This document shows, in pieces, positions 30,001-61,382 of a DNA stretch of 64,000 nucleotides. The stretch's first letter is position 1. Each line of letters begins with the position of its first letter. The notes below the pieces were generated by a model. That model searched no databases. It had not been told where the DNA came from and was given only the letters and a program-made list of their open reading frames with translations. Source of the stretch: Beroe forskalii (Eukaryota > Ctenophora > Nuda > Beroida > Beroidae); contig WFMF01000237.1 of the NCBI GenBank assembly GCA_011033025.1, forward strand, positions 186,001-250,000, in the 5' to 3' direction. The position numbers and the translations under genes are program-made.

Positions 30001-33000
30001 AGTGTTATCAGTGAATTATCAAATTGTTTATATAAACATACCGGGGGTTGAAGGGTTGTTCTTTGACTTGACAATGTTAAGTTTCATGGGACACAGCTCC
30101 CTTGACAGGGACTCAGACATGAGAGGCTTATTCAGGGATATCTTTACTATAACCTGTGAGGGGTTTAGTTTTAGTAACCTCAGGGATATCTTTACTGTAA
30201 CCTGCAGAGGTTTAGTTTTATTAACTTCAGGGATATCTTTACTATAACCTGTGAGGGGTTTAGTCTTATTAACTTCAAGGATATCTTTACTATGACCTGT
30301 GAAGGGTTTAGTTTTAGTAACCTCAGGGATATCTTTATTAACTGGTGTAAGCGTTTGCTAGCTCGTAGAGCTATTGCTTCCCCCAGTCAGCTAATTTCGC
30401 TCCTTCTTCGTCTTCTTACAAAGTGCCTCTAACTCATCTTTTAATCTTTAAGTCCTTAACTTTGTAAGAACATTTTTAAATTGGTCTCTATTTTTATTTT
30501 TTAGAGGAAGAGCGATATGAAACTTTGATTGTAATCTATAATAAAATGATTATTTATTATTTATTTATTTATTTATTTATCTATTATATAAAGGAAAGAG
30601 GCACTTCTACGTTTGTATGTGAATAACTGACACAAATGGAGCTAAACAGCCGCGATTTTTTGCAAGGCGGTAAAAAATGCCTAAACTTAAAAGATAGCAT
30701 GGCTAGAATTTTAATTTAGGCTTTAGAATTTTCGGAAATAACGTCGAAAGTTCGAAAAATCGACCCTAAAAAGAAGATCGCGTTATATACGGTAAATACA
30801 CACTTGGGTGTGTAATTACCACATTAATTCCACGAGCTTGCGAGTGGAATTCATGCAATAAATGCACGAGCTTGCGAGTGCATTTATTGGAGTAATTGCA
30901 CGAGCTTGCGAGTGCAATTACGATGGTAATTTACACACCCAAGTGTGTATTTACTGTATTATTACCCTGCCAAATACGCATCAATCAAAGTAGACGGTTT
31001 GAAACTTAAGTATTCGAACTCAATGTTTTATGAATAATGGGTAGGTACACTATTTCATAATTGAAACAGGCGAGAATTTTGGACAAATTTGCCAGTGATT
31101 TGTAAAAGTCAGAATCACATCATCATCGTATCGGGGTCAATTCAGCGAATATGTTCAAAAGTCCAAATGATACATTATACAACCAGCGCCCAGCATTGAT
31201 ACATACTGTTAGTGTATGACGTAGTGTATGCATATGTACTTAACAAAAATTTTGTTTTGATCTTTCATTGCCATAAAAATGAACCATTAAAGTTAAGTAC
31301 TCAATCGAAAACAAAACAATTCACACAAACAAACAATAACAACTGACTCGAGAGCTACAATCTTATGCGGATCTCGTATAGAATCTGCCCTTAAAGAAAA
31401 ACACGATCACATGTGAATGTAGTCAGCTAAATCTTTAGAGTGCATCAAAATGTATGTATGTACTACTCAGTTGAACAATAAGTTTTGCGCTATAATCATT
31501 ATCTTCATCCCGATCTAAAATAAGTAACGAACACTGACAGATAGAAATGACGGCACACAGAAATAACGTGAATGAAATTGATAAAACGAAGCAATACACC
31601 CCATATATGGCGCCACAAGTCTGCGTTATATATTCTCTAACACTAGATAAATAAACATTGAAACACGGATGGAGTTATCAAGCCCGTCTGGGTGGCGCCA
31701 TTTAGGTGTATACGATAGTGTTCCTTCTATCTATTTTATCTTTATCTTGTGTTGCCCTATAATACGGTTTAGATATATCGTATTTTATACATTGTGCTCT
31801 ATCTTCTTATCTTGTGCTACCGAATGTGCCATTAAGAATATATAACATATCGTATCGAACATTTTGTGCTCCTTATCGCTATTTTATCTTGTTTTACAGT
31901 ATATTTACGGTTCAGAATAGATTATATCGAATCGTTTTTAATATGAAAAGTGCGATAACAGATATCATGGGAGCTTATTATTCTCCTATTTACATCCGCA
32001 CAGAGATAGCAAATAGGCGAGAATCGTGCGAATAGCCGTTTCAGAAAATTGGTAGTAATTCAACAGTAGTAATTCAACAGCTGGGAATAGTAATTCAACA
32101 CTTGAATAGTAATTCAACAGTTGAGGTATAGTAATTACACACTTGACAGTAATTCAACTGCTGGGTACGGTGATATTACATGATTAATATTGCTCAAAAA
32201 TTCGAAAAGAAATTACACTGCAGGGTAATAATAGGTTAAATTCACCAGTTGCGCGCGTCGCTATGGTGATTGGTGATTGCGCGCGCTAAACTGCACGTGC
32301 ATTTTAACGAAGCATCTGCCATTTCGTTACTGAGTACTTTGAAAACGTTTTAACTGCTTACAGTCATAATTTACGTTCTCAATGGAAGTTTCGTAAAAAG
32401 TTTATGACATAACACCATCAACTCTAATCACTATTCTAGGACTAGGAGCAAAGGTAAGACTTGAACATTTTGTTCCATTGTGAAAATCAGCAATAATTGT
32501 TTCGTAAGATATTTGTAGTTTCGATGGTTTGCTGCGAGAATTCGACAAAAGAAGAAGGAATCTATTATTACTCAAGTTAGAAGTGGGTTCTAAACAGATG
32601 AAAATGCGCGCAATATTGATTCCAATGAGCTTGGATTCAAATTTGTTGCCCATCTTTTCTCCGAATCTAAACTTTGGATTAGAAAACGGTCATTGTTCTT
32701 GAGTTCTTCTTATTTACTGTTATGTGTCCTTGACACTAATTTGCAATGGCGAAATCTGCAATATATTTTGATTCATATTAAAATCCTATGTAAATATTTC
32801 GTAATTTCCCTACGTTGCACCTCTACCCCCAGTAACAAAAAATTTTATCAATGATTTCGTTCAATTTATTTTACGTCCAACTAAATATATACGTCCAATT
32901 TAAGAGAAAACCCAACGGGTTTTCTCGTTTATTATAACCTGTGGGGGGTTAAGTTTTAGTAACTTCAGGGATATCTTTACTATAACCTGTGAGGGGTTTA

Positions 33001-36000
33001 GTTCTAGTTACCTCAGGGATATCTTTACTATAACCTGTGGGGGGTTTAAGTTTTAGTAACCTCAGGGATATCTTTACTATAACCTGTGAGGGGTTTAGTT
33101 TTAGTAACCTCAGGGATATCTTTACTATAACCTGTGCGGGGTTTAGTTTTAGGGATATCTTTACTATAACCTGTGAAGGGTTTAGTTTTGACAACCTCAG
33201 GGATATATTCACTATATCTTTACAAAAGCAGAAGACGCTGGTTTATAGCGATAAAATTGATGAAAAAATGCTGTACAGTAACATTAATTTCAGCACTTTT
33301 GAAGCACAAACAGCTAAATTTAAGAAATACTCAGTAGCATAGCATGAATACTTTGTAATGTCACATTTCCATTACTTCAACAGAACTATGAAACTTTGCC
33401 TAGCACAGGACCTCCTTTAGCGCGGTGAAATGCTTGAAAGGCTCGCTTTGAACCAGAAGGAGGGTATTGCCAGCGAATAGCGAGGATAGTGACACTGACA
33501 GCACGCATTTACCCCTCTCTGACACAACCTCCCTCTCCGCCCTCCGGCGTCGCACCTCAGTGGGGGTTTGCCCCACGGCCTCTGAGCTCGTCGTCTTCTC
33601 AGTCTGCGAAATGAGGGTGGAAGTTAAATGCTTTATACTACTGTTATTCGGACGATATAATTCCTGATAATACCTCAGAAGCTTGGAGCTATCAACCAAA
33701 TTCCTCGGTCCCTTAGGTCCGATGGTGCAACTATCAAACCATCGAGTATTAATGCCATCCCTATTTTCGAGCTTTGCAACCACCTCGGCTTCACCTCGTC
33801 GGTTAAGTGGGTAGCTTTCAAAGTGAGAAGGTTTTAATGTTGATCATCTTTCCAATCAAAAAAGGTACATTTATGCTTATTCATTATTGCTTAGTTACTT
33901 TTTCACTTAGGCAATGGAGACAGCATATCTTACCCGTATGTCACTTGAAGATGGTTTGATTTTGGTGGGACTTGTCGATTTCTCGATGTGCAGCTGTCGT
34001 CTGGCGTTGCTTTGCGCTGTACCGCCTGAGATACAATATAAAACACGATTTAGCTGTGTTAATAATTTATGTACGGATCTAACTCTCACACTTCCCTCAA
34101 AAAATTTCTTCAAATATTCGATTGTAATTTTATTGTATCGTGTAGTGTTGTAAAGATGAATAAACTTTTAGTGGGAACGGGCGAATTGGTGCACTGTTGA
34201 TTCAATCAGACTGCGCAGGCACAATTGGGACAATTCTATCGTATCGAATGGTATCTTAAAATAAGACTGGTGAGAGTAAATGATAATGAGAGCTTTGAGA
34301 TGAGTGAGGAGCGATTGAACAATTCATTGAAGTACTGAACACGTAGCACCATTACATTGCAAGATTGTAGCATTGTGTTAGCATTGTGTTAGCATTGTGT
34401 TAGCATTGTGACCAAGCAAAGTGCTAGCTTGTCAGCTCATGTTTTTCTGAAGTACCAATCGATAACGTCATATCATTGAATAGTTTAATGAACAATGGTG
34501 ATGGAATCTGTAATAACGACCTCACAAGGAGCAATAAACTCAACATATATGAGCATTATTATCAGAGTATGTTAGATATCCCAATGATATTGCAAGACAT
34601 TGGCATGTAACAGATGCACACATACACACTCTACTGTGGACTGATGGCTGATTGATGCATGATAATGTAGTGAGAAACGCACACAACAACACATATGCAG
34701 CTATATCGAGGTTTTATTAACATCCCATAGATTAAAGTCTGTACTATAGTTTGCAGTTTTCATTAACTCAAGTACTAATCGCATGACTAACATGGGTTGA
34801 TCAGATTGCAGCACTTCTGTACTGTGAAATATACTTATGTAGATGAAAATACGTCACAAGTTTGGAAAAAGTTGGATCCAAACACAATATCACTTTACGG
34901 TTGAACATTTCAACCAACTAACATGTAAACCTATCTAAATACTAACATAGAAGCCTCTAAAGCAACTGACCTCCATCGAAGCGAGCATCTACTGGTTTAG
35001 GTCCCGGTGGCGGGGGCAGTCTGAAAACCTTGGGACGGTCAAACTTAGCCCTGACACTCACTTTGTCCTTGGTGTCCCAAAACCTTACGTTGACCGTGTG
35101 ATTGAACATGTCAAGAAGCAGCTTCTTTGTAACTGAGGAATAAGGCGTTGATAAAGTAATAAGTTATTATCGTAAGAAGAATAGATAATTCTTAAAAGCA
35201 TTAATATCAATCGGATTATCATGAACCTAGCTTCTCTTATTGGCTAGGTCCTCCCTTCCATCCCTTGTAACTGTAATTGGGTGTTTGTGACTCCACATAA
35301 CGAACTGCCTGTCCCCATCATTTCGTGTTTTCAGCAGTCTGGTGTCGTAGTCACTGTACATCTTAGCTACCATGCCAGACATCACCACGTCAGCTTTAGA
35401 AGGGCTCTTGTTGGGCAGCAAGTTGTACTCGATGTGGTAGTATTGCCAGGATTTCATGGCTTCAGCAGGTAGCTTACCATCCTCGTCTACCTGAAGTGGA
35501 GTGTGTTTTTTGTGTGTGTGTGTGTGTTTGTTGCTGTGATACCCACGGTGGGGCCGGTACTTGGCAGTGTGCCACAATGATATATTCGCAACTATACTTG
35601 ATAGAATATCAAAATAAGCGAATTAAAGGCAGGCTGAAAGATAGTGGAAGAGAAACATCGGTTAAATTGAGATAACGTGATAACCAACAACAGCTTAGCA
35701 GCCTCCAATGTCATCCACAACGGGTCATAATCAAGTAACAGTATATGAAAAAAATTAAGGGGGCCGGGGGGTGTCGATTTTCGGTTTTTGTTGTTTCTGA
35801 TAGCCGAACGCCAGCTACCAGTAGGTTTTTACCTGTGAAAAATATTGTTCCTAGCCGAAGTTATGAATTTTTCAAATCGCGAGTTGGCCTGTAATTACAG
35901 TGCGCGCGCAAACTTACGACGCGATTTGCCGAAAATAAACTTTAAAATCTATCTCCTCCTACGATTTTTGATTTAGGCCTCATAAGTGAAAATATGGCTT

Positions 36001-37613: not shown

Positions 37614-40118
<2,505 letters not shown>

Positions 40119-43100
40119 ATGGAAATTTCTATTCTGATTGATACAGATGATTTACAAATTGAAAACTACACTCTACCACCAAAAGTAATGAATCAGAAAA
40201 TTTACAGTTGTACAGCTCACAGCAGTGGCTCCGTATAATCATATCGATAGAAACTAAAAGCTTCATGATTTGAGACGATAATAGAAATTTAATTTGCAGG
40301 TTCTAGCTGTCTCTTTATACTCAATAAGAAGCTAGAACAGGCTCTGAGATTCAAAACAAATGAAATACAGAACATAACGCCCGTTATATTATATGGATGT
40401 ATTTCAAATTACCCAGAGACTGAAGCTGAACAGCTAAAGCAATCATTTGAGATACAAGAGGTAACAATTTACAAAAAGTCATCAGGACACAGAACATTTT
40501 GTCATCGCATATATAAAGTCAACCATTCTTGATAATCCCTGATCATGGCCCATCAGTTTCCAATTGATTAGTAGTAACGGTGATTCATTGCCAATATTTT
40601 ACTGCATAATCACTTGATGAGAAGATTTGCCATTAAATGCAAAATTCTTAGCGGTTGTTCTGAATGGCATTAATGCCATGAGATTACCTATGGAATATGA
40701 TAAGAAGTGGATGGTGTCGTGGAGTTTCGGTGGGATGAAGAGGTTTTTAAGCTCCCAATGGGAAGTGGCGATGAGACGCTATATTATGGAGGACAGGCAT
40801 TACCAACGAGATATTGAACAAGGCAAGTGTGTGGAGGTTCCACAGAGGATGGGGTGCCTGCTTGCCCGATTGGACTGGCGTCATCAATGAAGCACCGAGG
40901 GTGGGCCTGGTTTCGATCCTGCGTCTCTGAGTACTGCCAGACGGATGCAACATGGTTGTGGAATTAGTCCAACATAAGCTGCTCGGCGCCCTCCATTCCA
41001 GTAAAATTTTGTGTGACCAGTGGGGCAAACCACGGGAGTCACAAAATGCTGCTTGTTACCCATGGAACAGAGCACCGTTGTTCAATGAATTGATCAATTC
41101 ACAGCTGAATCTAAAATGTTTTCAATTACTAAACCATTGTGTGCTTTTACTTAAGTGAATCGCAAAGCGCCATCCTCAAATAAGATCATCGAAAGGAAAT
41201 GGATCAAATTCTGAACCTGCCGTCTGTCCGAACCTGACTAAAACAGGATCACTCTTCTTCCAATACGATCAACACAATCATCTGAGAGGAATTTATATCA
41301 ATATTATTCATGCAGCTTAACAGAGCAACAGTTAATAACAATCATAATTAAGTAATTATAATTTCAGTATTCAACTGATTTTTAGAACAAAGCAGTTTGA
41401 GCATGACATATATACTACCTTTATGACTTTGTGTCCACATCTACATAGCACAATTTTAGGAAAAGCAAATACCCAGATTGATTTCAAATTCAAATTGATT
41501 CTGTGTTTCATAGACGTTATAGGTATTGACGTTCCGAAAATTGAATTGGGATATAATCAAGATTTGGCAGTATGTTTTACTTTATTCTCTTGAGAAAATT
41601 TGCCATTGCTGATTTCATTGAATCAAGTTTAAGATTTATCACTTCCTGCCTGCACTTTATATTCGGACGCTCATTTCTTATAGTGGGATTTAGGTTGAAA
41701 AGTTTTAGACATAATGATACCCCTCAACACTAGAAGGGACAGTAGGCATGCCAGCTCTAAAAGTCTAAAATCAGATCTCAGGGAATAGCCGCACTATCCT
41801 GAGCAACAGGGGAGCCTCAGCCCTCATCTACCTGAGAATCACAAGTACTATGAATGGGAACGACATTTCATTCAATGACACTTCATCTCATGACACTAGA
41901 TCTGTTTCAGAGGGAGCTCAGGGCCTGAGCTATAGCTCGGGTCAGAGTTACTTTTATACAGGGGTGACCCCTTTACGCTGACCCGGATCTTCCGATACAA
42001 AATTTTCTACAGGGCTGTCGAGCGATAGCTCCCAGTCATTTAAATTTCTAGTCACGTGTTCAAAAGGTGTAATGTTGTTAATAACAAATGATATGATGCG
42101 TAACTACGATCTGCTTCCCTATTTTCATGTTGTTTTCATGACGCGCACCACGTGACAGGGTCACGTGTATCAGAGAGCTATAGTTGGGGTCAGAGTGCTT
42201 TCAGACAGGAATGATGACCCGAACTATAGCCGGGGTAATATAGCCGGGGCATTACCTCCTATAGCCGGTACTTGGCAATGTCATCGAAAAATCCCATCTA
42301 GAATAGGCTTGCTCTGAGCTATAGCTCGAACTATAGCCCCCAAAAATCCCTGTCTAGAACGGGCCCATGCAATATGTCAGCTCTCACGCAAAGGTTAGGT
42401 CTGGGTTAGGCTAGGTTTGAAGTTATGGGTTGAGTAAGTGTTCTGTTGCGGTCAGGGTTATGGTTAGGGTCAGGACAGGAGATGAAGTGTCCTGGATATG
42501 TGGGATGAAATGTCGTTCACCCCTTTACCCCCTTTAACTACTGCATTGACGACGGGTGGCAGTGTGGTAAAAAAGGAATTTAAAAGAGAATTAACGGGGA
42601 ACGGACATTTCATATCTCAGACTTCATCTCAGGACACTATCTCGCAATATATCAGCTCTATGCAAAGGTAAGGGTCTGGGTTAGGTCAGTTAGGTTTGGG
42701 TGGTCAGGTTAGGTTTGGGGTAAGGGTTACGGTTAGGGTTTAGACAGGGAGATGAAGGTCCCGGAGATGAAATGTCTGAGATGAGATGTCGCCCACCCGA
42801 ATTTATGATTTGCAGTTATTATTAGATTTGCAGTAGTGTAAACACTGAATGACAAACAGATTTCCTGATGTAAAAAACTGTCTTAGGTTTGCACTCACAA
42901 CCCTTTTACTACCCTATCGACGAGGTTCTATTGACTGATATGGCATTGAAAAACTTGAAAGGCTCTTTTTACCAGGTTTTATTGTTGTTCCCACACAGAT
43001 CGAGGTAGCGAATTTTTTATTTATTATCTTTACTTTAAATGCTTATAACCTTCGATGATTTATTTAATGAAATTTTTTCATTTCACTTAATTTATTAGAT

Positions 43101-43456: not shown

Positions 43457-43667
43457 ATTAGTTGATTCGGCACACCAACCCACATGACATTTCTGAAAAC
43501 GTGAAATGTAATCTTGTGAAACAAATTTACACTGAAGGGTAGCTCATATCATTATTTATAAATATATTTGATATGATTTGATTGTAAAGTGCCGGGAAAA
43601 TTTTTTAAACGTTTTTATATGAAAGTTAACGCAATTAGTAAAGAAAACTGTTCATAGATTATCAAAC

Positions 43668-46600
43668 CTTAGATAGTCGAGTGTAGGGCGACCCAGTGAG
43701 CGCGTATTGTTTAACTATCTCAGTTTCAACTAACTCATACGCCTTCTCAGCTGCAGCCTTGTCTAAACGTTCACTTGTAACTCGAGCTTTCCCAGCGATC
43801 CGCATACCATGGCCTAACGGAACATTTTAAGAAAATTACCAATTCGAATGGAATCAAACTTCCTTTGTAAACATACGAAAATTCAAGGGCGGATAAAAAC
43901 ATCTTTCTTCGACAGCTGGTAGATAAGATTTTGAACAAAGAAGTAGTTACATGACTAACTCTCGTGTGATGGGATCCATTGAATAATGCTTTCCAAATTA
44001 CTCTCCAGATTCTTCCAAGTTTTAGTTTTTTTCAACTCCTCACCAGTTAAACTAGCGCACCTGCAATATTAATTTATTCATCAATAAATTACATAACTAC
44101 ATGGTTGTTAAAATTGACTTGGTTATTAATATTTTATTCAAACTTTCTCACGATCGAAATAACAGCGTACAATGCGACACTACACGTACGATGTGACACT
44201 ACACGTAATCACGTACGATGTGACACTACACGTACGATGTGACACTACACGTAATCAAGTACGATGTGACACACGTAATCACGTACGATGTGACACTACA
44301 CTACACGTACGATGTGACACTACACGTACGATGTGACACTACACGTACGATGTGACACTACACGTACGATGTGACACTACACGTACGATGTGACACTACA
44401 CGTACGATGTGACACTACACGTACGATGTGACACTACACGTACGATGTGACACTACACGTACGATGTGACACTACACGTACGATGTGACACTACACGTAC
44501 GATGTGACACTACACGTACGATGTGACACTACACGTACGATGTGACACTACACGTACGATGTGACACTACACGTACGATGTGACACTACACTTAATCACG
44601 TACGATGTGATGCTGAAGATGAGGTCTCTGTGTCTTGCTGCTTTGCTGTTCCGCATTGTGTTAAGGTGCATCTCACACCACGTCATGTCTGCCCAGGTTA
44701 GGTTGTCCAGGGTTAGTTTGTTGTCAGTCCCCACGCTTAGGTGCAACGTAACTGCTACCTTATCTTCGCTTTGGAAGGTGTACCTGATAAAGGCGAGGGT
44801 GGAGATTCTGGAGGCACTGTTCACTCATATATGCTAAAATTCTGGTGTCACTTTTCACATATTTGCAACTATTCCACTGTCACTTTTGACTTATAATGCT
44901 AAAATTTATCGGTAACAAATTTTTTATCTAGATAAACCGATAATTATTTCGGTTTTATCTAGATAAAATTTTTATCTAGATAAAATCTATCAGTTTTTAA
45001 AAACTTTTTTGCCACTGTCAATCTGGTTACTTTCGCTAAATATACGTCAGTCTGATATCATGGTGATTGTTGATACACCCGACTGGCGTTAGTGAAGAGT
45101 GAGACTGTTGTTATTGATAACACTATGTCCAAAAATTGTCGATGATACGTAATAGTGGTACTTCCGATTGGTATCAGAGTTCATTCAGGTTGATATCATT
45201 GATTTGTCAGTGTTAGACTGATGCAATTTATCCGTCAGAACGGTATTAGGAATACTATACAGCAGAATAGGTCAGAGATGCGCACGAAAGGTATCAATCA
45301 TGCATCAGATTGGTGTCAGTGATACGGCAGACTGGTGTCAGTGATAAGTCACACTGCCAGACTGGTGTCATTGATACGGCAGACTAGTGTCAGTGATAAG
45401 TCAGACTGGTGTCAGTGATACGGCAGACTGGTGTCAGTGATACGGCAGACTGGTGTCCGTGATACGGCAGACTGGTGTCATTGATAAGTCACACTGCCAG
45501 ACTGGTGTCATTGATACGGCAGACTGGTGTCAGTGATAAGTCAGACTGGTGTCGGTGATACGGCAGACAGGTGTCAGTGATACGGCAGACTGGTGTCAGT
45601 GATACGCCGATACGGCAGACTGGTGTCAGTGATACGGCAGACTGGTGTCCGTGATACGGCAGACTGGTGTCAGTGATAAGTCACACTGCCAGACTGGTGT
45701 CATTGATACGGCAGACTGGTGTCAGTGATGAGTCAGACTGGTGTCGGTGATACGGCAGACCGGTGTCAGTGATACGGCAGACTGGTGACAGTGATACGGC
45801 AGACTGGTGACAGTGATACGGCAGACTGGTGACAGTGATACAGAAGACTGGTGTCAGTGATACGGCAGACTTGTGTCAGTTATACTGCAGACTGGTGTCA
45901 GCAGTCAGTGATAAGTCAGACTGGTGACAGTGATACGACAGACTGCTGTCAGTGATAAGTCACACTGCGAGACTAGTGTCATTGATACGGCAGACTGGTG
46001 TCAGTGATAAGTCAGACTGGTGTCAGTGATACGGCAGACTGGTGTCAGTGATAAGGCAGACTGGTGTCAGTGATACGGCAGACTGGTGTCAGTGATAAGT
46101 CAGACTGGTGTCAGTGATACGGCAGACTGGTGTCAGTGATAAGGCAGACTGGTGTCAGTGATACGGCAGACTAGTGTCAGTGATAAGTCAGGCTGATGTC
46201 AGTGATACGGCACACTGGTGTCAGTGATACGGCAGACTGATGTCAGTGATACGGCAGACTGGTTTCAGTGATACGGCAGACTGGTGTCAGTGAAACGGCA
46301 GACCGGTGTCAGTGATACGGCAGACTGGTGTCAGTGATACTGCAGACTGGTTTTAGTCATCTATAGCAGATTGTTAGTGTCTGTAATACGTCTGGCCAAT
46401 GTTAAATATCTGATGTGTGTCTGTGACACGACAGAATAGTGTCACTGGTGCCAGATTTGTGTCGGTATCAGTTATCCATTAAACAAGTGTCAGTGATTCA
46501 TCAGGATAGTTTCAACTATACATCAAATATGTGTCTGTGGTATGTCAGACTGGTGTTGGTGATTGGTAAGAAAGGTACCAATGACATGCTTGACTGGTGG

Positions 46601-49600
46601 CAGTGATCCTTCGGACTGGTGAAATTTAAACCAGTCCAATTTTACAAGCACTTTTCAACGCCAGCTATTTTGCTATTTTATCTAGATAAAAATAATTTTA
46701 TCTAGATAAACCGATAATTTATTTTGACGAATTATCGGAGATAATTATCGGTTTCGATTATCGGACTCCTCACTCGGGAGAACTCTGCCTTCTTCACAAA
46801 CCCCAGCTTCTTCAGCGTATCTAACAACATCTCCTGGTCTGTGCTGGCTGTCTGTAGTGTGTCTACGTACACACACTTGTTACCGATCATATCGAAACTG
46901 TTCCGGAAGTCTCCGAAGCGACCGAACTCGCACGAAGCCGAGAGAACGCCGTGCGCGTACACGTTGTGTTTTTCTCTGATAACCTAGCGTCACAGTGGTG
47001 ATGAGATAACCTAGCGTCATCACAGTGGTGATCTTATTTTAAATATTTGGAAAATATAAAAGTTGAAGCTTGACATGATCTGGAACAGTATGAACACCAA
47101 TTATATATAGCTATCAAATATCAAATTATGTCGTAGCTAAATTAGTAGTGTTCGGGTGAACTGTTCGAAAAGTTCCATGTTTAATAATAACCTTTATGCG
47201 ATCCATGAGAAAGAGACCAGCAGAGTTCGCTAGATTTGACCAATTGGAGAGATCTAAGATTTGGAAGTTCTGAAGGATCTTGTAGCCATCTTTAGTCTTG
47301 TACGCGCACGGAACTTGCTTATCTTTGTTATCAACTATATCTCCGAGGTAAATACGATGACTGCCTTCTACTTGTATATCATTAGCTGAAAACCGTTGAA
47401 CTCAGTTTGTTAATTTGGCAATTTTAAAGTTTTAAGTTGAATCAAAACTTTCACTTTAAAAAATACGCAAAATTATAACACTTACAAAGTTGTAAGAAAC
47501 AATCTGAATAAGTAGCCATTGTAAGTTGTAACTAACATAATCGGCTGGCACGTTGAAATGTCTCGCTTTTAAGAGGACGTTGCATGGACTCAGTGACATC
47601 TTGGAGAACTTCTGGAGTATTACCCCACACTTCAATTACAATAATCTGAGAAGGAAAGACGCCTTACAAGATGAAATAATATGGGACAATAGTTCTAAAG
47701 ATCGAAATTTTTGGGGTTCGACTGTATGGGGATTTTTTCAAAAATCCCCATATTTCGTACCTTTTAGATATGTCTCGTAAGGTAGTGGTCATTTAGTGAC
47801 TTATTTAAAACGATGATCATGTGACAATGCCAGTCAAAGTGCGTCCTAAAACGCACGGTATTACCTGGGAGCGTTGCATGTTGGTTCGGCGCATGTTGAC
47901 TTCCACATTGGAGTGTTTGTGAAGGTGCTGCGCGCACAGCTCCGTATCGTAACACACGGGATACACAAAACCAGGCTTGTACTTCGCTATCTTGTTACGT
48001 TTACCTAACCACAAACAGTATATGATGAGCGATCAGATAGCGAATGGGATGTGTTATCAGATGATTATTGCACTCAAATTCGAGATACGGGAGCATAATG
48101 ATCAGGGTTTCTTAAACTATTAAAAGAGATGACACATGGACCAATGGACCATCAGTCTCAAAACTTTGAGACCAACAAGGCAACGAAATGAAATTAGGAT
48201 ACCTCTCCGTCTAGCGAGGTCAGATCCATCTTGTTCCTTGCTGAAGAGGAAGTAGCATGTTTCGTGGTACTCCCTCATCGCATAGCTCACAAACTTCGTC
48301 CTGTGAGGGAAAACCACGTAATTAAAATTGTATGGGGTGACAAGCATGATGCAACCACACACAGAGGTTTTAGATCCTTAGGATTTTAGGGTTGTCTTTC
48401 GGTTGTTTTCGTTATCAATTAAATATAAACATTGCCTACCTTATACTCCTCCCTACCCCATATTTTCCTCTAAAATTACCTCAATAAGGATCCTACACTA
48501 CCTTATACCCCATATTTGCTCTAAGATTGACTACTCCTTCCATATCCCCTTAGATATTCCGTGAAAACTTCCCCCAATAAGGATCCTACACTACCACACA
48601 CCGCTCTGCACTGAGGATGGCACACAGCGACATGTTCATCTCCTTGAGGGAGGGCGGTATCCAAGGGAAGGGAGTGAGGTCCTGGACCGCTTTCCCGTAG
48701 ATCACACTTTTGAGGAAGAGGAAGTAGAGTTCGGCGGAGGAGGACTGGAGAGTGGTTACCAAGGGGACGGGGGGAGCCTCACACAGGGGATCCAGGAGGG
48801 ATTGGAGGGATGAGGGAGGGGATGCCTTAGTAGGAGAGGAGGAGGGGTAGTCAATGTTGATGGGTTCTATTTCCTTCTCCTGGAGACAGAAGAATTGTTC
48901 ACAATCGACATTTATAATGAACAAATCACTTTTTTTGAATTGCTCACCATGTGAGATTATCAATGAACAGAGGGACTACATAGAAAAATTTTAAGAGCTG
49001 TAAACCCCTCCCATTTCAATATCTAACCCTTCTTTTAACTTTTTATCAGATATCTGATAGAAGATGATAAGATATTTGATGAAAATCTCAGCAAAGACAA
49101 AAGAGCTGCATACTCGGCTCTAAAAGAACAATACAAGTTCGCGTACCATAAGCAGGATCATGATAAAAAGCAAGATGTAGTCTGTGTTGAGCACGTGCAT
49201 TTCCGCGTCCAGTGAGTTGGAATCCACCCACTTTACTATCACGCCGGCCGGTACTTGGAGTTCCGGGTTATGTTCCAGGTAACGGCGTATCGTGAATAAC
49301 TGAAATAAACCAGTGGTAGTGGGGGGACTGGTCATGTTTGTTATGAAAAGATGGAAAAAACAGTACTCATTAGAGCTTTAGAGTGGCATACATTAGAGTG
49401 GTATACATTAAAGCATTAAGGTCACTGCTTTTCTAAATGCGACCTCTACTGTATTTCCCAGTCATGATAAATAACGATGAATTATCAATAACGGTCAGAT
49501 AGGCTTTTGAAAGAATAAAAACGACAAAAGGGACAAATACCTTCCTAAGACATTCCTTTCCTCTGAGAATGTAGACACTCGGAGAATGTCTGAGAGCTAG

Positions 49601-52600
49601 GTAAACCTCCTTCGTGCCAAGCAGGTGGAGATAGCTCTTATCCCAATCTGGGGAGTGGAGATTCATCTCAAATGAATTGTAATGATCAGCTATATCTCAT
49701 GTTTTAATGACAGTCAAAATTCAGTACATTGTAACACGACAAATTGTCGGCTTGACAATGCTGTCAACTTGCAAAGATCACGGGGATAGGAAATTGAAGA
49801 GAAGATTCATGAATATCACTTAATTGAACTGATTTCTAACAAAATCCACAATATGATGAATATGACATAGCTTCATCCGGAACACCCCAAGATACTAAGA
49901 AAAGATGTGATGATTTTGGCTTTTTGGGTCTGCGAGGGCGGGCAGGAGGTTGCCTGATATTGACAGGTTCATGAGGGGAGTTCAATAAAAGGGGAAGGGA
50001 ACTGGGGACCAAGGATTCTGGAAGGGGAGTTGAATGAGGGGGTAATCAAATTAAGCTGATGCTTTGATGGATGATTACCAGGGTGTGTCTCGAACATATC
50101 CTGCTGTAGTTTAGCAAGAGGTGCTGTAGCAGATGAGTTGCAGAAGTAGGTAATGACGTTCTGATTGAAGGGAAGCCCATACGCCTCACCTTCTGGGATA
50201 ATGTGTTAATGGGGGAGAGCAGTCATCGTGAATCTGAATTCGAAATGATTTGATACGGTACGATCATAAATCATTGATAGATTGATCTTAAAAAGTTAAA
50301 AACTGAGGGATCAGGGCTATAGACTGAATTCTGAAGTGATGAAAGAAATTTGAAGTCTAGATAAGGGCGAAAATGGCGATAGAAATCGGAGGAAGTAACA
50401 TGACATACTAATCTCAATGAGATTAAACTCCGCCACAAAGGTTGCCAATCTTTCTTTAGTTTCAATGTAGGCTTGCGGTGGGTTAGCTTTCTGAAAATAA
50501 GAAATAAAATCACAAGAAAAGTTCAGGTACTTTAGTTGATAGGAGGGCCCACTCTTGGCCAAACAATGAACCGGTTATCATTTTCCACAGTGCCACTTTA
50601 GACAGTGTTAATTATGAAGTACTTGATAAAGGTTATCAGAATTTGTTTTTTCTGATTTGACATCCATATAATAGAATTCCAAATTCCCAAGTCACAGATA
50701 ACGCACCGTTTGCGGGATCTGGTCGGTGAACCACTTGGACATGTTCATGATCAGCTGATCAGTGCAGGACTTCCTGTCTTTTATCAGACCCTGAGCCTTC
50801 CTCTCCTTAGCAATCTCACAAAACACCTGTAGGGGGGGTTACTTGCATCAGAAACGATGTTAAAAGACTATCAATCGAGATTCGAGGTAAAGTGCGTAAG
50901 CGGATCCTAAGATCCTACCGCACGGGTCGCAGTCCAATGTGATTAGCTCTACTCGACTTCTCCTCGTGTTATGATTAATTCATGAATTAATCATAACACA
51001 AGGAGAAGCCGAGTAGAGCTAATCTTAGGTAACAAGTTATGGTCAAATTGGTAACCAGATTGCTTCATGAACTCATGAAGGACAATACTTCAAAGTCACA
51101 AACCTCGCTAACGCACCAAGGGAAGGACAGCAGCTTGACTTTACCCTCGTCAGGCACGTATTTGTACGCTGCCAGGTACCACGCAGAGGCTTTCTTATAG
51201 CACTCCAACTTGCAGGGCTCCTTCCACTCTCCTTTCTGGGTACCGAACTCATCGAAAAACAGTCTCTGATATCTGCGAAATGACGTCATTATAAGAGCTC
51301 AAAGTGGTGAGTTGATGACGCCATTGTCAGAGCTCAAAGTGGTGAGTTGATGACGCCATTGTCAGAGCTCAAAGTGGTGAGTTGATGCCGTTGAACAGAT
51401 TAGTGAACTATTGAGCCATCTCAAAAACAAACTCTGATATGGTCATTGGTCAGTGATAGAGCACATGAGATCAAGAATACCCCTCATGATTGACTGGTTT
51501 CTAAGTATCAAAATAAGGCCGATTCTGGAGTAATCTGGCATTATGTCATGACATTGACCGTTACATGTCTAGATCACACAGATATTTGTGTTATTTACTT
51601 GGCTTGTAAGCTCCGGTAGAATCTGACACACTCCTCAGTTATGTCGTAATTCTTCTTTCTGTCCTTGTCAATGCTCTGCTTCACCTGCCAATGCCCGGGG
51701 GAATCAAAGTATGATTCGCAGCAGGGAGAGGCTGTTTTTACAGACACGTGTATCGCAAAAAATACAACATCTAAATCCATGTTAAGAACCTTCTTGGGTG
51801 GCTGTTTTCAGGTGAAAAATAGTTTTAATTAAAATTTATATTCTTAATAATGAATTTAATGTGTTACTGGTCTTGTCACTTTGCTTGTCTCGTCTCAGAA
51901 AGCCAAGAACTCAAGAAGAAAATCAGAGAACAGAGAAAGTTATTGAAATACTGAAGTAGAAGTTACCGTATTGAGGCACCCGCACGCGATGTCTCCCTCC
52001 TGCTCCAGGCCGTACTGCGACATAAGGGCCGTGAGGGCCTTGTTGTACTCACGACACAGGGTCTGGGCCTCCTTGATATACGCCTGCCACCCCTCCTCGA
52101 TCAACAGGTTGTCAGGTTTCAAGTTAGCCGGGTCACACAGCGTCTCCTGTTCCTCCCCTAATACCTTAGGTGTTGTGTGGTTTCAAGGTAGTACGTGATA
52201 AATTTGGAGGGATTTATTATATTATTATGGGAATTGGGAGGACATTCCTGGAAAAAGTCAGCGTTTCAAAGTAGTTAAAAGGGCAACATATGGGCAGCTG
52301 CTGCTGCATTCAGCAAAAAATGGCTGTTGCCCCAAATTACACAAACTACAAATTCTAACACACTTTCGGACGACTAAAAGGGTGTGATCTAATAATTGCA
52401 GCTTAGTACTTGGCTTGCTATTGTCATCACACTGGTTTGGCAGCTCATTAGTTTGGCAGCAGATTGGTTTGGCGTTTTGCCAGCACATTGATCGCACCAC
52501 AACTTCGATTGCGAGCCCCATTTTTTCCACTCACGTGGTCCAAAGATCGGCAGATCTTGAAACACTCGCCCACCACACTAGTGGATCTGTAGCAGGGTTT

Positions 52601-52950
52601 GTCTGGTTTCTCCATCCAGTCCGGATACTCATATACCCTGAGATCCTTGGAGAAGTTTTCTGGTACACCTGAAAACAAGGTTAAACCGGTTGTACAAAAG
52701 GGTGAACATTGGTACAGAGATGTGGTTGAGAGGGACAGTAATAGCTTAATTAAGAACGACTCTGAATTGAGAACTCAAAACCAACAGTTAGATTCCAATC
52801 AAATGCTATTTAAACCGTACCTGTTTTGGGGTAGTCCACTGCGATGCTGTGTTGCTCCGCGAGTCTGATAGCCTTATCACAATCAACTGATTCCATGTCA
52901 CAGTGTACGGTGTGAGCGTTACTGATCTTACCTGCCGTACATAAGGTACG
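43668..52950 (-). CDS. RNA-dependent RNA polymerase gene, left copy, truncated at both ends
   Basis: Exons: 52821-52950 (e1), 52535-52668, 51967-52152, 51599-51684, 51104-51272, 50707-50826, 50409-50490, 50079-50192, 49541-49647, 49147-49299, 48602-48879, 48203-48300, 47865-48004, 47537-47645, 47192-47385, 46769-46983, 44604-44783, 43960-44060 and 43668-43813 (e19). Phases agree throughout. The start of the chain carries marks of the cellular RdRP family (QDE-1/EGO-1/plant RDR): AEQHSIAVDYPKTG, YEYPDWMEKPDKPCY, ALTALMSQYGLEQEGDIACG, RLFFDEFG, KASAWYLAAYKY and LLSFPWCVSE. Such enzymes copy RNA into dsRNA in silencing. The DxDGD catalytic motif should lie just upstream of e1, but there the sequence is minisatellite followed by the right arm. 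The last exon of the right copy is also absent. e16 (46769-46983) has lost its GT donor to an insertion. Probably a non-functional fragment as an enzyme. Domains after e6 were not recognised. Confidence 0.75.
44160..44600. repeat. 19-base satellite grown from a splice donor
   Basis: More than 20 copies of ACGTACGATGTGACACTAC. On the minus strand each unit reads CACATCGTACGTGTAGTGT. This contains the exon-end and donor sequence CATC|GTACGT of e17 (donor at 44603/44604), which abuts the array. The right arm has only a few degenerate copies at about 58881-58980. Confidence 0.9.
44906..46768. mobile_element. Inserted element with inverted ends and internal satellite, absent from the right arm
   Basis: Both ends carry inverted copies of an AT-rich module (ACCGATAATTAT with TTTATCTAGATAAA): 44906-44995 and about 46675-46765. 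Between them is a 22-base satellite (CGGCAGACTGGTGTCAGTGA) at about 45268-46360. The equivalent place in the right arm (after 58461) has ordinary intron. The insertion begins directly after the last exon base of e16 and replaces its donor. No protein frame was found, so it is non-autonomous. No clear target duplication was found. Confidence 0.65.
45268..46360. repeat. 22-base satellite array
   Basis: Some 45 copies of GACTGGTGTCAGTGATACGG-type units, with AAGTCA variants at regular intervals that suggest a higher-order period. It lies wholly inside the insertion at 44906-46768. Confidence 0.9.
51280..51393. repeat. ~40-base tandem repeat with CRE-like site, left arm
   Basis: Three copies of a unit with AGAGCTCAAAGTGGTGAGTT and TGACGTCA or TGACGCCA. 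The matching repeat in the right arm is at about 53915-54022. Related single copies occur elsewhere in the window (5888, 8558, 17713). Confidence 0.8.
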
Positions 52951-53599
52951 CTGAATTGAAATAATATTATGTAAATTTGAGTGCAAGTGCATTGTTCCAT
53001 TGCTAAGACGATTTAATTCTTAACTAAAACTCTGAAAGGCTTGACGACACTGTGCTAAGGGCTACTCACCTAGGTTGTTAGGTTTGGTGATGTGCTTGAC
53101 AACACTTCCCTACCCACCTAGGTTGTTAGGTTTGGTGATGCTTGCGACAAATGACTCCCTACCCACCTAGGTTGTTAGGTTTGGTGATGAGCTTGACAAC
53201 ACTGCGCTACCCACCAATGTGCTTTACTGTTAGGTTTGTTGATGTGCTTTGACAACACTGCACTGCCCACCTAGGTTGTTAGGTTTAGGTTGGTGATGTG
53301 CTTGACAACACTGCACTACCCACCATTGCAGTCTTCTGTGATCAGTACAAGTGTTTTAGAGTGATTGCAGTCTTCTGTGATCAGTACAAGTTTTAGTTTG
53401 CAGTCTTCTCAGTGATTGTTTCAAGTGATTGCAGTCTGTGATCGGTGCAGGTTGTCAAGTGATTGCAGTCTTCTGTGATCAGTATACGTGTATAGCTCAG
53501 TGATTGCAGTCTTCTGTGATCATACTCCACGGTACGCCCTACCCCAACCGCTCGGTACACGCAGCTGCATTACACCACAGCAGTTTTACACCAACATGA
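51706..53599. other. Spacer at the axis of the inverted duplication
   Basis: Single-copy DNA between the arms. It holds exons e1-e3 of the left RdRP copy (51967-52950) and two minisatellite blocks (53050-53330 and 53325-53525). The last 80 bases before the right arm show no feature. Confidence 0.85.
53050..53525. repeat. Two minisatellites at the duplication axis
   Basis: The first block has about five copies of a 50-60 base unit with CACCTAGGTTGTTAGGTTTG and CTTGACAACACTG. The second block has about six copies of TTGCAGTCTTCTGTGATCAG. Together they separate left-copy exon e1 from the right arm, where upstream RdRP exons would be expected. Confidence 0.9.
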
Positions 53600-56500
53600 T
53601 GATTCCCCGGGCATTGGCAGGTGAAACAGAGCATTGACAAGGACAGAAAGAAGAATTACGACATAACTGAGGAGTGTGTCAGATTCTACCGGAGCTTACA
53701 AGCCAAGTAAATAACACAAATATCTGTATGATCTAGACATTATGTAACGGTCAATATCATGACATAATGCCAGATACGGTAACCCCAGAATCGGTCTCCT
53801 TTTCCTACTTCAAAACCTTTTCCTACTTCTTATGTGCTCTAGCACTGACCACTGACCATATCAGAGTTTGTTTTTGTGATGGTTCAATAGTTCACTGATC
53901 TGTTCAACGGCATCAACTTACCACTTTGAGCTCTGACAATGACGTCATCAACTCACCACTTTGAGCTCTGGCCTCTAATAATGACGTCATCAACTCACCA
54001 CTTTGAGCTCTGATTATGACGTCATATCGCAGGTATCAGAGGCTGTTTTTCGATGAGTTCGGTACCCAGAAGGGAGAGTGGAAGGAGCCCTGCAAGTTGG
54101 AGTGCTATAAGAAAGCCTCTGCGTGGTACCTGGCGGCGTACAAATACGTGCCTGACGAGGGTAAAGTCAAGCTTCTATCCTTCCCTTGGTGCGTCAGCGA
54201 GGTTAGTGACTGAAGTTTTGTCCTTTATGACTTCATGAAGCAATCTGGTTACCACTTTCACTTTAATGTGTTACCTGAGATTTACTCCACTCGGCTTCTC
54301 CTCGTGTTATGATTAATTCATCACATTGGACTCCGACTCGTGCGGTAAGATCCTAGGATCCGCTTAAGCACTCTACCTCGAATCTCGATTGGTAGTATTT
54401 CAACATCGTTTCTGATGCAAGTAACCCCTTCTCTGCAGGTATTTTGTGAGATTGCTAAGGAGAGGAAGGCTCAGGGTCTGGTAAAAGATAGGAAGTCCTG
54501 CACTGATCAGCTGATCATGAACATGTCCAAGTGGTTCACCGACCAGATCCCGCAAACGGTGCGTGAGCAGTGACTTGACAATTTGGAATTCTATTATATG
54601 GATGTCAAATCAGAAACATCGAATTCTGATAACCGTTATCAAGTACTTCATAATAAACACTGTCTAAAGTGGCACTGTGGTAAATGATAACCGGTTCATT
54701 GTTTGGCCAAGAGTGGGCCCTCCTATCAACTAAAGTACCTGAACTTTTCTTCTGATTTTATTTCTTATTTTCAGAAAGCTAACCCACCGCAAGCCTACAT
54801 TGAAACTAAAGAAAGATTGGCAACCTTTGTGGCGGAGTTTAATCTTATTGAGATTAGTACGCAATGTTACTGTACTTCCTCCGAATTCTGTCGCCATTTT
54901 CGTCCATATTTAGACTTCAAATTTCTTTCCTCATTTCAGAATTCAGATCACCCTGATACCTTGACAGTTTTTATTAAGTGAAATGATTTTTGATCGTACC
55001 GTATCAAATTATTTCGAATTCAGATTCACGATGACTGCTCTCCCCCACTAACACATCATCCCAGAAAGTGAGGCGTATGGGCTTCCCTTCAATCAGAACG
55101 TCATTACCTACTTCTGCAACTCATCTGCTACCGCACCTCTTGCTAAACTACAGCAGGATATGTTCGAGACACACCCTGGTAATCAGCCATCAGAGCATCA
55201 GTTTAATTTGATTACCCCCTCCCTTCCATTCAACTCTTCTTCCAGAATCATGGGTTCCCAGTCCAACCCCCTAAAATGTGCTCACTTCCCTTCCCCTTTT
55301 TATTGAACTCCCCTCATGAATCCTTCAATCTCAGGCAACCTCTTGCCCGCCCTCGCAGACCCAAAAAGCCAAAATTATCACCCCTTTTCTTAGAATCTTG
55401 GGGTTTTCCGGATGAAACTATGTCATATTCATCATATTGCGAATTTTGTTACAAATCAGTGCAATTAATTGATGTTCATGTATCTTCTCTTCAATTTCCT
55501 ATCTCCGTGATGTATCTTTGCAATTTGACAGCATTGTCAAGCCGACAATTTGTCGTGTTACAATGTACTGAATTTTGACTGTCATTAAAACATGAGATAT
55601 AGCTGATCATTACAATTCACTTGAGATGAATCAGCTCTCCCCAGATTGGGATAAGAGCTATCTCCACCTAATTGGCACGAAGGAGGTTTATCTAGCTCTC
55701 AGACATTCTCCTAGTGTCTACATTCTCAGAGGAACGGAATGTCTTAGGAAGGTATTTGTCGTGTTTCTTCTTTCAAATAAATATCTGACTGTTATGATAT
55801 TGTTAATCATGGCTGGGAAATACAGAAATTGCGTTTAGAAAACCAGTGAACTTGTATACCACTCTAAAGCTCAAATGAGTACAGGTTTTTCAACATCTTT
55901 ATTGAAAAACCCCCACCAATACCACTGCTGTATTTCAGTTATTCACGATACGCCGTTACCTGGAACATAACCCGGAACTCCAAGTACCGGCCGGCGTGAT
56001 AGTGAAATGGGTGGATTCCAACTCACTGGACGCGGAAATGCACGTACTCAACACAGACTACATCTTGCTTTTTATCATGATACTGGTTATGGTACGCGTA
56101 CTAAGTACTTGTATTGCTCTCTTAGAGCTGAGTATGCAGCTCTTTTGTCTTTGCTGAAATTTTTCCTCAAATATCTTATTATCTTCTATCAGGTATCTGA
56201 TAAAAAGTTTAAAGAAAGGTTAGATGTTGATTGTTGAAATGGGAGGGGTATACAGCTCTTATAAAGTTTTATACGGTAAAGTCCCTCTGTCCATTAATAA
56301 TCTCACAAGGTAACCAATTCAAAAAACTTGATTTGCTCATTATAACTTTATTAATGTCGATTGTAAACAATTCTTCTGTCTCCAGGAGAAGGAAATAGAA
56401 CCCATCAACATAGACTACGACTCCTCTCCTACTAAGGCATCCCTTCCCTCATCCCTCCAATCCGTCCATCCCCTCCTTGATCCCCTGTGTGAGGCTCCCC

Positions 56501-59500
56501 CTGTCCCTCTGGTAACCACTCTCCAGCCCAAGTCCGCCGAACTCTACTTCCTCTTCCTCAAAAGTGTGATCTACGGGAAAGCGGTCCAGGACCTCAATGA
56601 ATTCCCCTGGATCCCGGCCTCCCTCAAGGAGATGAACATGTCACTGTGTGCCATCCTCAGTGCGGAGCGGTGTGTGGTAGTGTATGATCTGTATTAGCTT
56701 ATTGTGGGAATGTCTTGGACCCGAAGTGGGGAATGTTAGAGGAAATATATGGGGTATGGAAGGAGTGCAAGGTACCTAGTCAATATTATACTATTATGGA
56801 TAACGAAATTACGACAACAACTGAAAGACAACCCTAAAATCTTGATGGTCTAAAACCACTATCTTTGTGTAGTTGCATCTTGTGGAGAATAGGAATTTCA
56901 GGCCTGCCACCCCTTAGATTTTTTGAATGTGAAGACATGGTTCCCCACAGGACGAAGTTTGTGAGCTATGCGATGAGGGAGTACCACGAAACATGCTACT
57001 TCCTCTTCAGCAAGGAACAAGATGGATCTGACCTCGCTAGACGGAGAGGTATCCAACTCTCATTTCGTTGCCTTGTTGGTCTCAAAGTTTTGACACTGAT
57101 GGTCCATTGGTCCATGTGCCATCTCTTTTAATAGTTTAAGAAACCCTGATCATTATGCTCCCGTATCTCAAATTTGAGTGCAATAATCATCTGATAACAT
57201 ATCCCATTCGCTATCTGATCGCTCATCATATACTGTTTGTGGTCAGGTAAACGTAACAAGATAGCGAAGTACAAGCCTGGTTTTGTGTATCCTGTGTGTT
57301 ACGATACAGAGTTGTGCGCGCAGCACCTTCACAAACATTCCAATGTGGAAGTCAACATGCGCCGAACCAACATGCAACGCTCCCAGGTAATAAAACTGTG
57401 AGTTTCAGAACGCACTTTGACTGGCATTGTCACATGATCATCGTTTTAAATAAGTCACTAAAAATGACCACTACCTTACGAGACATATCTAAAAGGTACG
57501 AAATATGAGGATTTTTGAAAAAAATCCCCATACAGTCGAACCCCAAAAATTTCGATCCTTAGAACTATTGTCCAATATTATTTTATCTGATAAGGTATCT
57601 CTCCTTCTCAGATTATTGTAATTGAAGTGTGGGGTAATACTCCAGAAATTCTCCAAGATGTCACTGAGTCCATGCAACGACCTCTCAAAAGCGAGACATT
57701 TCAACGTGCCAGCCGATTATGTTAGTTACAACTTACAATGGCTACTTATTCAGATTGTTTCTTACAACTTTGTAAGTGTTATAATTTTGCGTTTTTTGTA
57801 AAGTGAAAGTTTTGATTCAACTTAAAACTTTAAAATTGCCAAATTAACAAACTGAGTTCAACGGTTTTCAGCTAATGATATACAAGTAGAAGGCAGTCAT
57901 CGTATTTACCTCGGAGATATAGTTGATAACAAAAATAAACAAGTCCAGTGCGCGTACCAGACTAAAGATGGCTACAAGATCCTTCAGAACTTCCAAATCT
58001 TAGATCTTTCCAATTGGTCAAATCTAGCGAACTCTGCCAGTCTCTTTCTCATGGATCGCATAAAGGTTATTATTAAGCATGGAACTTTTCGAACAGTTCA
58101 CCCGAACACTACTAATTTAGCAACGACATAATTTGATATTTGATAGCCAAATCTAATTGGTGTTCATACTGTGCCAGATCATGTCAAGCTTCAACTTTTA
58201 TATTTTCCAAACATTTCAAACAAGATCACCACTGTGATGACGCTAGGTTATCAGAGAAAAACACAACGTGTACGCGCACGGCGTTCTCTCGGCTACGTGC
58301 GAGTTCGGTCGCTTCGGAGACTTCCGGAACAGTTTCGAGATGACCGGTAACAAGTGTGTGTACGTAGACACACTACAGACAGCCAGCACAGACCAGGAGA
58401 TGTTGTTAGATACGCTAAAGAAGCTGGGGTTTGTGAAGAAGGCAGAGTTCTCAAGAGTGAGGTGAGACGATGCTTTTACGAATTAAGCATAAATGAGTGA
58501 CAAGTGACAACGTTATTTTTGCATATGATTGAAAAATGACACCGGAATTTTAACATTATAAGTCAAAAGTGACAGTGGAATTTTAGCATTATAAGTAAGA
58601 AGTGACAGTGGAATAGTTGCATATTTGTGAAAAGTGACACCGGAATTTTTGCATATATGATTGAACAGTGACTACAGAATATCCACCCTTGCCTTTATCA
58701 GGTACACCTTCCAAAGCGAAGATAAGGTAGCAGTTACCTTGCACCTAAGTGTGGGGACTGACAACAAACTAACCCTGGACAACCTAACCTGGGCAGACAT
58801 GACCTGGTGTGAGATGCACCTTAACACAAACCGGAACAGTAAGGCTGCAAGACACAGAGACCTCATCTTCAGCATAACATCGTACGTGATTACATGTCAC
58901 ATCGAACGTGTAGTGTCACATTGTATGTGATATTACGTGTAGGTGTCCCATCGTACGGGATATAACGTGTAGTGTCATATCGTACGCTGTTATTTCGATC
59001 GTGAGAAAGTTTGAATAAAATATTAATTACCAAGTGAATTTTAAAAACCGTGTTGATATGTAAATTTATCAATTAATAAGTCATTATTGCAGGTGCGCTA
59101 GTTTAACTGGTGAGGAGTTAAAGAAAACTAAAACGTGGAAGAATCTGGAGAGTAATTTGGATAGCATTATTCAATGGATCCCATCACACGAGAGTAAGTA
59201 ATGAAACTTATAAACTTCTTCTTTGTTCAAAATTTTATCTACCAGCTTTCGAAGAAAGATGTTTTTATCCGCCCTTGAATTGTCTTATGTTTACAACAGG
59301 AAGTTCGATTCCATTCGGATTGGTAATTTTCCTAAAATGTTCCATTAGGCCATGGTATGCGGATCGCTGGGAAAGCTCGAGTTACAAAGGAACGTTTGGA
59401 CAAGGCTGCTGCAGAGAAATCGTATGAGTTAGTTGAAACTGAGATAGTTAAACAATATGCGCTCACTGGGTCGCCCTACACTCGACTATCTAAGGTTTGA

Positions 59501-59560
59501 TAATCTATGAACAGTATTCTTTATTAATTGTGCAAACTTTCATCAACTAAAAGGAATTTC
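53600..59560. repeat. Right arm of a large inverted duplication
   Basis: Mirror of 43615-51705. Exons are nearly identical and of equal length except one 6-base in-frame difference. The introns align but carry many substitutions and small indels. Confidence 0.95.
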
Positions 59561-59855: not shown

Positions 59856-61382
59856 CATTTGGGTTTAGCATTTGATAATTAAACTTGATTTTATACCCCT
59901 TAATGATTAAACTTGCTTTTGAATATTATTTCTATCGAGCTGTATTTAGTAATGTTGTGTTAAACATGTTTTAGAAATAAGTTAGGCGTGTTTAGGGATT
60001 TGTTTGCAATTTTTATGTGACGATAAGGTCTTAAAGAGTTTATCGAGCATTTTATTGCTCAAGTTTTATATTATAATTACTGAAGATGAACAATATGCAG
60101 AATATTTTTACAGCTGTTAAATTGGTCGATAGATTGTTTATAAATTGATTTGAGTAAATTCTGATATTCCTCTTATATATTGCGAACTCGTTTAGTGAAA
60201 CAAGGAGTTATTAATCAAAATATTTTCAATGATCGACATCATCTTCAGTTCTCAAATTTGATTGTATAAAGTAGTGTTGTAAAGTTGTATAAAGTAGTGT
60301 TGTAAAGTTAAACTTTACAACACTACTTTATACAATCAAAGTTGTATAAAGTAGTGTTGTAAAGTTAAACTTTACAACACTACTTTATACAATCAAATTT
60401 GAGAACTGAAGATGATATCGATCATTGAAAATATTTTTGATTAATAACTCCTTGTTTCTCTTAACGAGTTCGCAATATATAAGAGGAATATCAGAATTTA
60501 CTCAAATCAATTGAAACAATGCGACTCTTGAGTATAACCCCTCTTATCTGAAGCAATAGATTGTTTATAATTGCGCAAATTTGAAACTGGGCATTTCTGT
60601 AATTCTGGACAAATGCATATCGCTGACAGCCAAGCGTTTCTGGGCTAATTTAATCCGTTCGACGCGATCGTCGTATGACTTTTTTGTGCAACAGATGCGC
60701 AGATTTCCAATTTGCGCGCGCGGCGTGGGAATTTTATTTTAGCGGTTCTTCTTAATTAGAATGATTCACGATTGTTATGAAAGTTAAAACAACTAATTAT
60801 TGTTGATAATGATTTATAATTTATTCCTCATCAATTTATGCATTCGAAATTATCAAATGTGTCCCATTCTTTCCTTTCACCATCATGAAATATTTATCAT
60901 TGCCCATGTTTCACTCATATTGAAGAGTAATGAATGAAGTTTAAAGTTCTGTCACCTAATTATCTAGACGCTTAAAAGTTAAGAGCTTCAATATTTTGTT
61001 TACTTTCACCACTGACATGAATTTATTTGCAACCCTAGATTAATCCCTTGATATTTTCATAGCAGATGTTCGGTTACATCTTTGAAAGCCTGCAGCAAGT
61101 CGGATGCCTGACGTTGCATGCACAATTTATGGAAGAATTCATTGAAGTCAGATTCCGGTTACAGAGAATATCATCCAACCGCATGCTTGCCAAATGAGAA
61201 CAAGTGGAGAACAAAATAACAAAATATGAGGAATAGAAATATTCCCGGCTGTTTTGATAAAGGAGCAATGTAAGTCGTTCGATCCCCATTATTTATATTA
61301 TTTCTGTAGCCGCCTAAGATTAATTTTGCCATCATTTCGACATTTCAAATTGTTCAATAATCCGTAAAGTTTGATTTTCGTG
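59856..61382. other. Intergenic, RdRP copy to secreted protein gene
   Basis: AT-rich and without exons that I can support, apart from the fold-back element at 60143-60512. A GC-rich CGCGCGCGG patch lies near 60715. Confidence 0.6.
60143..60512. repeat. Nested fold-back element, 370 bases
   Basis: The outer arms start AATTGATTTGAGTAAATTCT and end with its reverse complement. They enclose alternating direct and inverted copies of TATAAAGTAGTGTTGTAAAG, giving two perfect inner palindromes. No frame is open across it. Confidence 0.9.

Follow-up and report, generated by a model that had tools for sequence, protein, structure and literature searches.

A probable transposon-mediated inversion between RdRP paralogues behind an apparent 16 kb palindrome in Beroe forskalii

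Introduction

Galileo in Drosophila is reportedly among the close known systems for the locus considered here, a stretch of 64 000 nucleotides from the ctenophore Beroe forskalii (contig WFMF01000237.1, positions 186 001 to 250 000; hereafter the window), in which two head-to-head arms with parts of an RNA-dependent RNA polymerase (RdRP) gene look like a 16 kb palindrome. We propose that this palindrome most likely arose from an inversion of ∼116 kb between inverted copies of a dispersed element, here called E, and that the inversion cut one of two RdRP paralogues (copies A and B); on the evidence below we consider this origin probable.

Inversion via transposon copies is described in PMC3355041; its mark is given there as chimeric elements with exchanged target duplications. 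Like the systems described there, the present locus has inverted element copies at both breakpoints, an apparently chimeric element, a putative split target duplication and a changed gene structure at a breakpoint. It differs from them in that only one of the two exchanged duplications would be observable, the second E copy being truncated; in the size of the proposed inversion; and in that the flip would set two paralogues head to head, imitating a palindrome.

According to Pinzon et al. 2019 (PMC6396948), the eukaryotic-type RdRP of animals (PF05183) has been lost many times in animals. Copy A and two genes on another contig (C866) are of this eukaryotic type according to Pfam, and the damaged copies fit a labile gene family; unlike the genes of that family, the arms have no polymerase domain, and the damage here is by rearrangement and not by absence. 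No comparable case of an inversion, a pseudogene or an inverted duplication involving RdRP stood among the literature matches listed.

Arms, spacer and junctions

Coordinates are window positions unless prefixed by C289 (the same contig) or by the name of another contig. Self-BLAST of the window confirmed the inverted repeat as a feature of the sequence, far beyond chance, and bore out the mirrored arms and the 1.9 kb spacer described in a first-pass annotation of this DNA. The arm genes read outward from the spacer. That annotation had described two head-to-head RdRP genes; the RdRP identity holds for part of the sequence, while the genes are not whole, each arm being just the 3′ part of an RdRP gene down to its stop codon, and no polymerase catalytic motif was found among the listed open frames of arms and spacer. 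The parts of the structure are as follows.

43619-51705, minus strand: left arm, the 3′ part of copy B, with the end of the polymerase protein and a putative C-terminal extension (self-BLAST; collinear open exons)
43664-43662, minus strand: left-arm stop codon, TGA after SKV
51706-53324, minus strand: left part of the spacer, 3′ polymerase exons of copy B, joined to the left arm (BLAST)
53325-53593, minus strand: left-end fragment of E, terminus TGGTGTA facing the right arm, truncated at 53325
53594-53599, no strand: junction of the E left terminus with the right arm; ATGT at 53594-53597, minus strand
53600-59543, plus strand: right arm, probable 3′ part of what was once the copy A gene, without its polymerase core (self-BLAST; open exons)
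59498-59500, plus strand: right-arm stop codon, TGA

Copy A lies on the same contig, to the left of the left arm, whose outer edge is ∼97 kb away. It is a multi-exon RdRP located by profile search at C289:124789-132191 on the minus strand, in a piece spanning C289:123532-132191, and its broken 3′ end (C289:123532) is 116 kb from the end of the spacer. The spacer at 51706-53324 is homologous to C289:123532-125476 of copy A, in BLAST pieces of 85-97%.

Element E is dispersed and ∼1.2 kb long. Its ends are short inverted sequences (TGGTGTA/TACACTA), and it contains a minisatellite of ∼39 bases; a full copy is present at C289:122334-123526, and related copies exist on other contigs. The window fragment is 92% identical to C289:122334-122621 over 288 positions, in opposite orientation (window 53593-53325, minus strand), so that copies of one dispersed element stand at both breakpoints in opposite orientation. 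The first 144 bases of the two left ends are identical, and the two share a variant absent from eight other aligned E copies.

The right end of E at C289 abuts the broken end of copy A, and the left end of the window fragment abuts the right arm. Homology of copy A to the spacer ends at C289:123532/51706, and homology between the arms starts at 53600/51706; on the uninterrupted copy B with its left arm, the two junctions thus coincide at a single intron site (51705/51706), the pieces meeting within one base, with a length difference of eight bases at the shared site when aligned by eye. Besides the ATGT next to the right arm there is a second one beside copy A, at C289:123527-123530, and we infer that the two represent a split 4-bp target duplication. 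Opposite ends of E thus border copy A and the right arm at one and the same intron position, and ATGT is present at each junction; most simply, and very probably, these two pieces formerly made up a single gene with E inserted in an intron. What the sequence itself shows is the homologies, an E end at each of the two junctions, ATGT at both and outer flanks that are unrelated (see below).

The proposed course of events would be the following. Copies A and B, RdRP paralogues with ∼11% non-coding divergence, would once have stood in the same orientation on one chromosome. E would have inserted into an intron of copy A, ∼23 bases before exon VKQSIDKDRKKNYD, with ATGT duplicated as its 4-bp target; next to a 5′-truncated copy B there would have been a second E copy, oppositely oriented and bordered by another repeat. 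Recombination between the inverted E copies would then have flipped ∼116 kb (C289 ∼122.5 to ∼239.5 kb), splitting copy A in two, the part with the polymerase core (C289:123532-132191) and the right arm as a 3′ orphan. The same flip would have set the orphan head to head with the 3′ part of copy B (spacer and left arm), which gives the ‘palindrome’. The inverted arrangement of the arms thus looks secondary, between diverged paralogues. We infer that the flip took place in the animal and is no product of the assembler, that it was a single event, and where it stands in time with respect to the other damage.

Rearrangements of this kind are known, the present case being unusually legible, and no new palindrome type or mechanism is needed. 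A palindrome seen in a dot-plot can be a by-product of transposon-mediated inversion between paralogues, and such an origin comes to light only when the missing half of the element insertion is looked for elsewhere on the contig. Should the flip be real, an animal RdRP gene has been dismantled by rearrangement, in a family reported as lost many times in animals (PMC6396948).

Nine other E loci were inspected; TGGTGTA opens the match in eight of them, and TACACTA or TATACTA closes it in six, so these are the usual ends of the element. Loci L013 and L016 share one right flank, and L022 and L026 share both flanks; E has therefore spread within larger repeats too. The 131-137 bases that flank E on its left at C289:122334 also adjoin E at L022 and L026, with 94-95% identity. 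Given this recurrence, the left junction of the C289 copy probably predates the event, and the E copy at C289:122334-123526 looks like a chimera of two insertions.

Divergence and coding content of the arms

The self-comparison of the window gave six inverted blocks (self-BLAST, 87.4-96.2%); two satellites interrupt the alignment of the arms.

53600-54321 versus 51706-50982: 88.9%
54320-56695 versus 50943-48576: 87.4%, with 162 gap positions
56941-58252 versus 48311-47005: 95.9%
58225-58462 versus 47002-46768: 96.2%
58579-58929 versus 44906-44551: 91.9%
58877-59543 versus 44267-43619: 88.8%
44166-44591, no strand: 19-bp satellite, longer in the left arm, a gap in the arm alignment (Tandem Repeats Finder)
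45311-46351, no strand: 22-bp satellite of ∼45 copies, left arm only, a gap in the arm alignment (Tandem Repeats Finder)

Leaving out gaps and the two satellite blocks, the aligned arms differ at 94 of 2420 coding positions (3.9%) and at 334 of 3148 non-coding positions (10.6%). The earlier observations that exons are more alike than introns and that the arms differ in satellite content were correct. Over 808 codons in 17 segments from 15 putative exons, the synonymous divergence (dS) was 0.13, the non-synonymous divergence (dN) 0.017 and dN/dS 0.13 (bootstrap 0.08-0.21); the segments were hand-picked from open frames, which makes them open by selection and tends to lower the ratio. Exon-edge sequences are largely conserved between the arms as judged by eye, the last exon is followed in both by the same TGA after SKV, and homology ends 43 bases beyond the stop codon on both sides. 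From the low dN/dS, the conserved exon edges, the common TGA and the position of the homology edge past the stop, it seems that the arms were functional coding sequence for most of the time over which they diverged.

When a repeat-poor arm piece was searched against the assembly (69 matches, with 40 of 400 candidates scored), the two arms were the only full-length matches among those listed, the remaining listed matches being a 100-130-base intron repeat. With 46768-53700 as query (39 of 749 candidates scored) neither the window itself nor the right arm was among the matches listed, and that search was not used alone against further copies.

The RdRP matches in the window are to 3′ exons only:

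52932-52819, minus strand: RdRP exon match, spacer
52672-52520, minus strand: RdRP exon match, spacer
52125-51964, minus strand: RdRP exon match, spacer
51684-51598, minus strand: RdRP exon match, left arm
51277-51101, minus strand: RdRP exon match, left arm
53621-53701, plus strand: RdRP exon match, right arm
54028-54204, plus strand: RdRP exon match, right arm

A profile search of the genome with PF05183 gave 10 matches, one of them in the window, within the spacer (profile 494-535), and none in either arm. Pfam searches with single exons of arms and spacer (10 and 6 proteins) gave nothing near the cut-off (best E-value 0.09). The remaining arm exons look like a C-terminal extension of RdRP, since they are collinear in similarity with the stretch behind the RdRP of C866 (local score 79 versus a maximum of 67 in 300 shuffles). 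A tblastn search of this C866 stretch against the arms gave no match at an E-value of 1. The stretch itself reaches DUF7752 below cut-off (20 bits versus 29), and the DUF7752 profile run against the genome listed C866 (E-value 0.05), C427 and C345, none above cut-off, and not the arms. The 5′ end of copy B is lost in a 48-bp minisatellite, and its 5′ exons were not found by tblastn in C289:116001-122333 (E-value 0.01).

Weighing the explanations

Several observations speak against the proposed inversion. The window E fragment is truncated at 53325, so that only one of the two exchanged target duplications can be expected in the sequence. Of the five other E loci with both usual ends, a 4-bp duplication is present at one (L019, CGTT) and absent from L013, L016, L022 and L026. 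The shared ATGT could be a 1-in-256 coincidence; the shared intron site stands independently of it. A single duplication of the gene does not quite predict the lower non-coding divergence of copy A from copy B (53/702, 7.5%) than of the left from the right arm (Fisher p = 0.015), although gene conversion or unrecognised coding sequence could account for it. The open exons, largely conserved exon edges and low dN/dS imply that the orphaning was recent, that the flip is polymorphic or that the assembly is in error. Finally, the 144 identical E bases could mislead an assembler using short words.

The last two points lead to an assembly misjoin inside E, an alternative that we regard as possible and considerably less likely than the inversion. 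The true order would then be copy A, E, right arm, with copy B and the left arm ∼97 kb away in the same direction, the segment having been flipped by the assembler. Besides the identical E left ends, a misjoin would agree with exons still open in both arms, which is what an undivided gene made of copy A and the right arm would show, and with a run of 64 N, either a gap or withheld sequence, at the edge of E locus L020. Against it, the E copies differ past the identical stretch, and the assembly crosses the 1 kb array of 22-bp units, which suggests long reads, to which a 1.2 kb repeat would be no obstacle. The alternative arrangement is on no contig among the matches listed in the two assembly searches above. 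Moreover, the BLAST pieces reveal that copy A is without the stretch matching window 51853-52030 (the end of one exon with its donor), so that with this within-exon deletion it is damaged in either arrangement. Copy A holds partial tandem repeats of the exon hit by the deletion; owing to these, pairwise alignment of copies A and B placed the deletion poorly, and the BLAST pieces were used instead.

The first-pass annotation had also considered that two haplotypes were joined in opposite orientation, the arms being alleles of one locus. Divergence is similar along the arms and both are under purifying selection, as alleles would be, but this explanation predicts homologous outer flanks, and these are unrelated: between the 14.5 kb right flank and the 43.6 kb left flank we found four blastn matches of 21-39 bases and one tblastx match of 24 residues, all scattered. 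Elsewhere on the contig, the exon of a tubulin-tyrosine ligase (TTL) gene and the first large RdRP exon each have one full-length match in the assembly, whereas the repeat-poor arm piece has two among the matches listed, and the outer homology, by ending at the same distance past the stop codon on both sides, marks a duplication edge and not a haplotype edge. We consider joined alleles very improbable. The other origin named there, an old and diverged inverted duplication, was right as to age; a palindrome formed in one step, by primary inverted duplication of the 3′ region of RdRP, would suit the present arrangement taken alone, but we give it hardly any credence, as it leaves unexplained the opposite E ends at the same intron site in the right arm and copy A, with ATGT at both. 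It is still more doubtful that a transcript crossing the spacer forms a kilobase-long hairpin of RdRP C-terminal sequence, giving small RNAs against the remaining RdRP transcripts, in which case the inversion would have made an RNA-silencing gene silence itself.

Copy A and the other RdRP genes of the genome

Copy A has seven PF05183 exon matches covering profile positions 1-212 and 363-536; tblastn with the C866 protein accounts for much of the stretch between 212 and 363. Copy A carries the RdRP catalytic motif DxDGD as DLDGD (DLDGDEYFVCW) at C289:125434-125676, DLDGD being present in C866 as well. As assembled, no RdRP copy on C289 looks complete, because copy A is without its 3′ exons and part of another exon, copy B is without the catalytic part and the right arm is without polymerase. 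The animal may be losing this RdRP gene, which would accord with the repeated loss of RdRP reported across animals.

The two genes on C866 are the sole others found by the PF05183 genome search:

C866:30172-34860: intronless RdRP gene (L001)
C866:41398-46086: intronless RdRP gene (L002)

They are 11 kb apart, 93% alike over 4.7 kb and GC-rich (57.7% in the coding part of L001), and each shows, by eye, an apparent reading-frame break near the C-terminus. The best solved-structure matches of the C866 RdRP are to RNA-dependent RNA polymerase 2 (E-value 6e-99), structures from plants. The pair could represent retrocopies, RdRP of an older type or DNA from another organism. The C866 genes adjoin a coding-like minisatellite.

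Other features of the window

The TTL family gene mentioned above is at 37614-38849 on the minus strand (PF03133, E-value 3e-101) and has, besides its one full-length DNA match in the assembly, a partial relative of 66-79% on C170. Just outside the left arm, at 40000-41903 and 42369-42939, lies a dispersed repeat matched dozens of times elsewhere, at 92-93% for the best of the long matches. At 60133-60520 there is a fold-back element of ∼390 bases, whose halves are inverted repeats (86%) and which has matches on many contigs. A minisatellite with a 48-bp unit occurs at 30131-30337 and 32928-33216, and a 35-bp minisatellite forms three separate arrays within 2.5 kb (26606-27016, 28262-28485 and 28835-29048). 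A near-perfect palindrome (98%) of 102 bases is located at 8743-8844.

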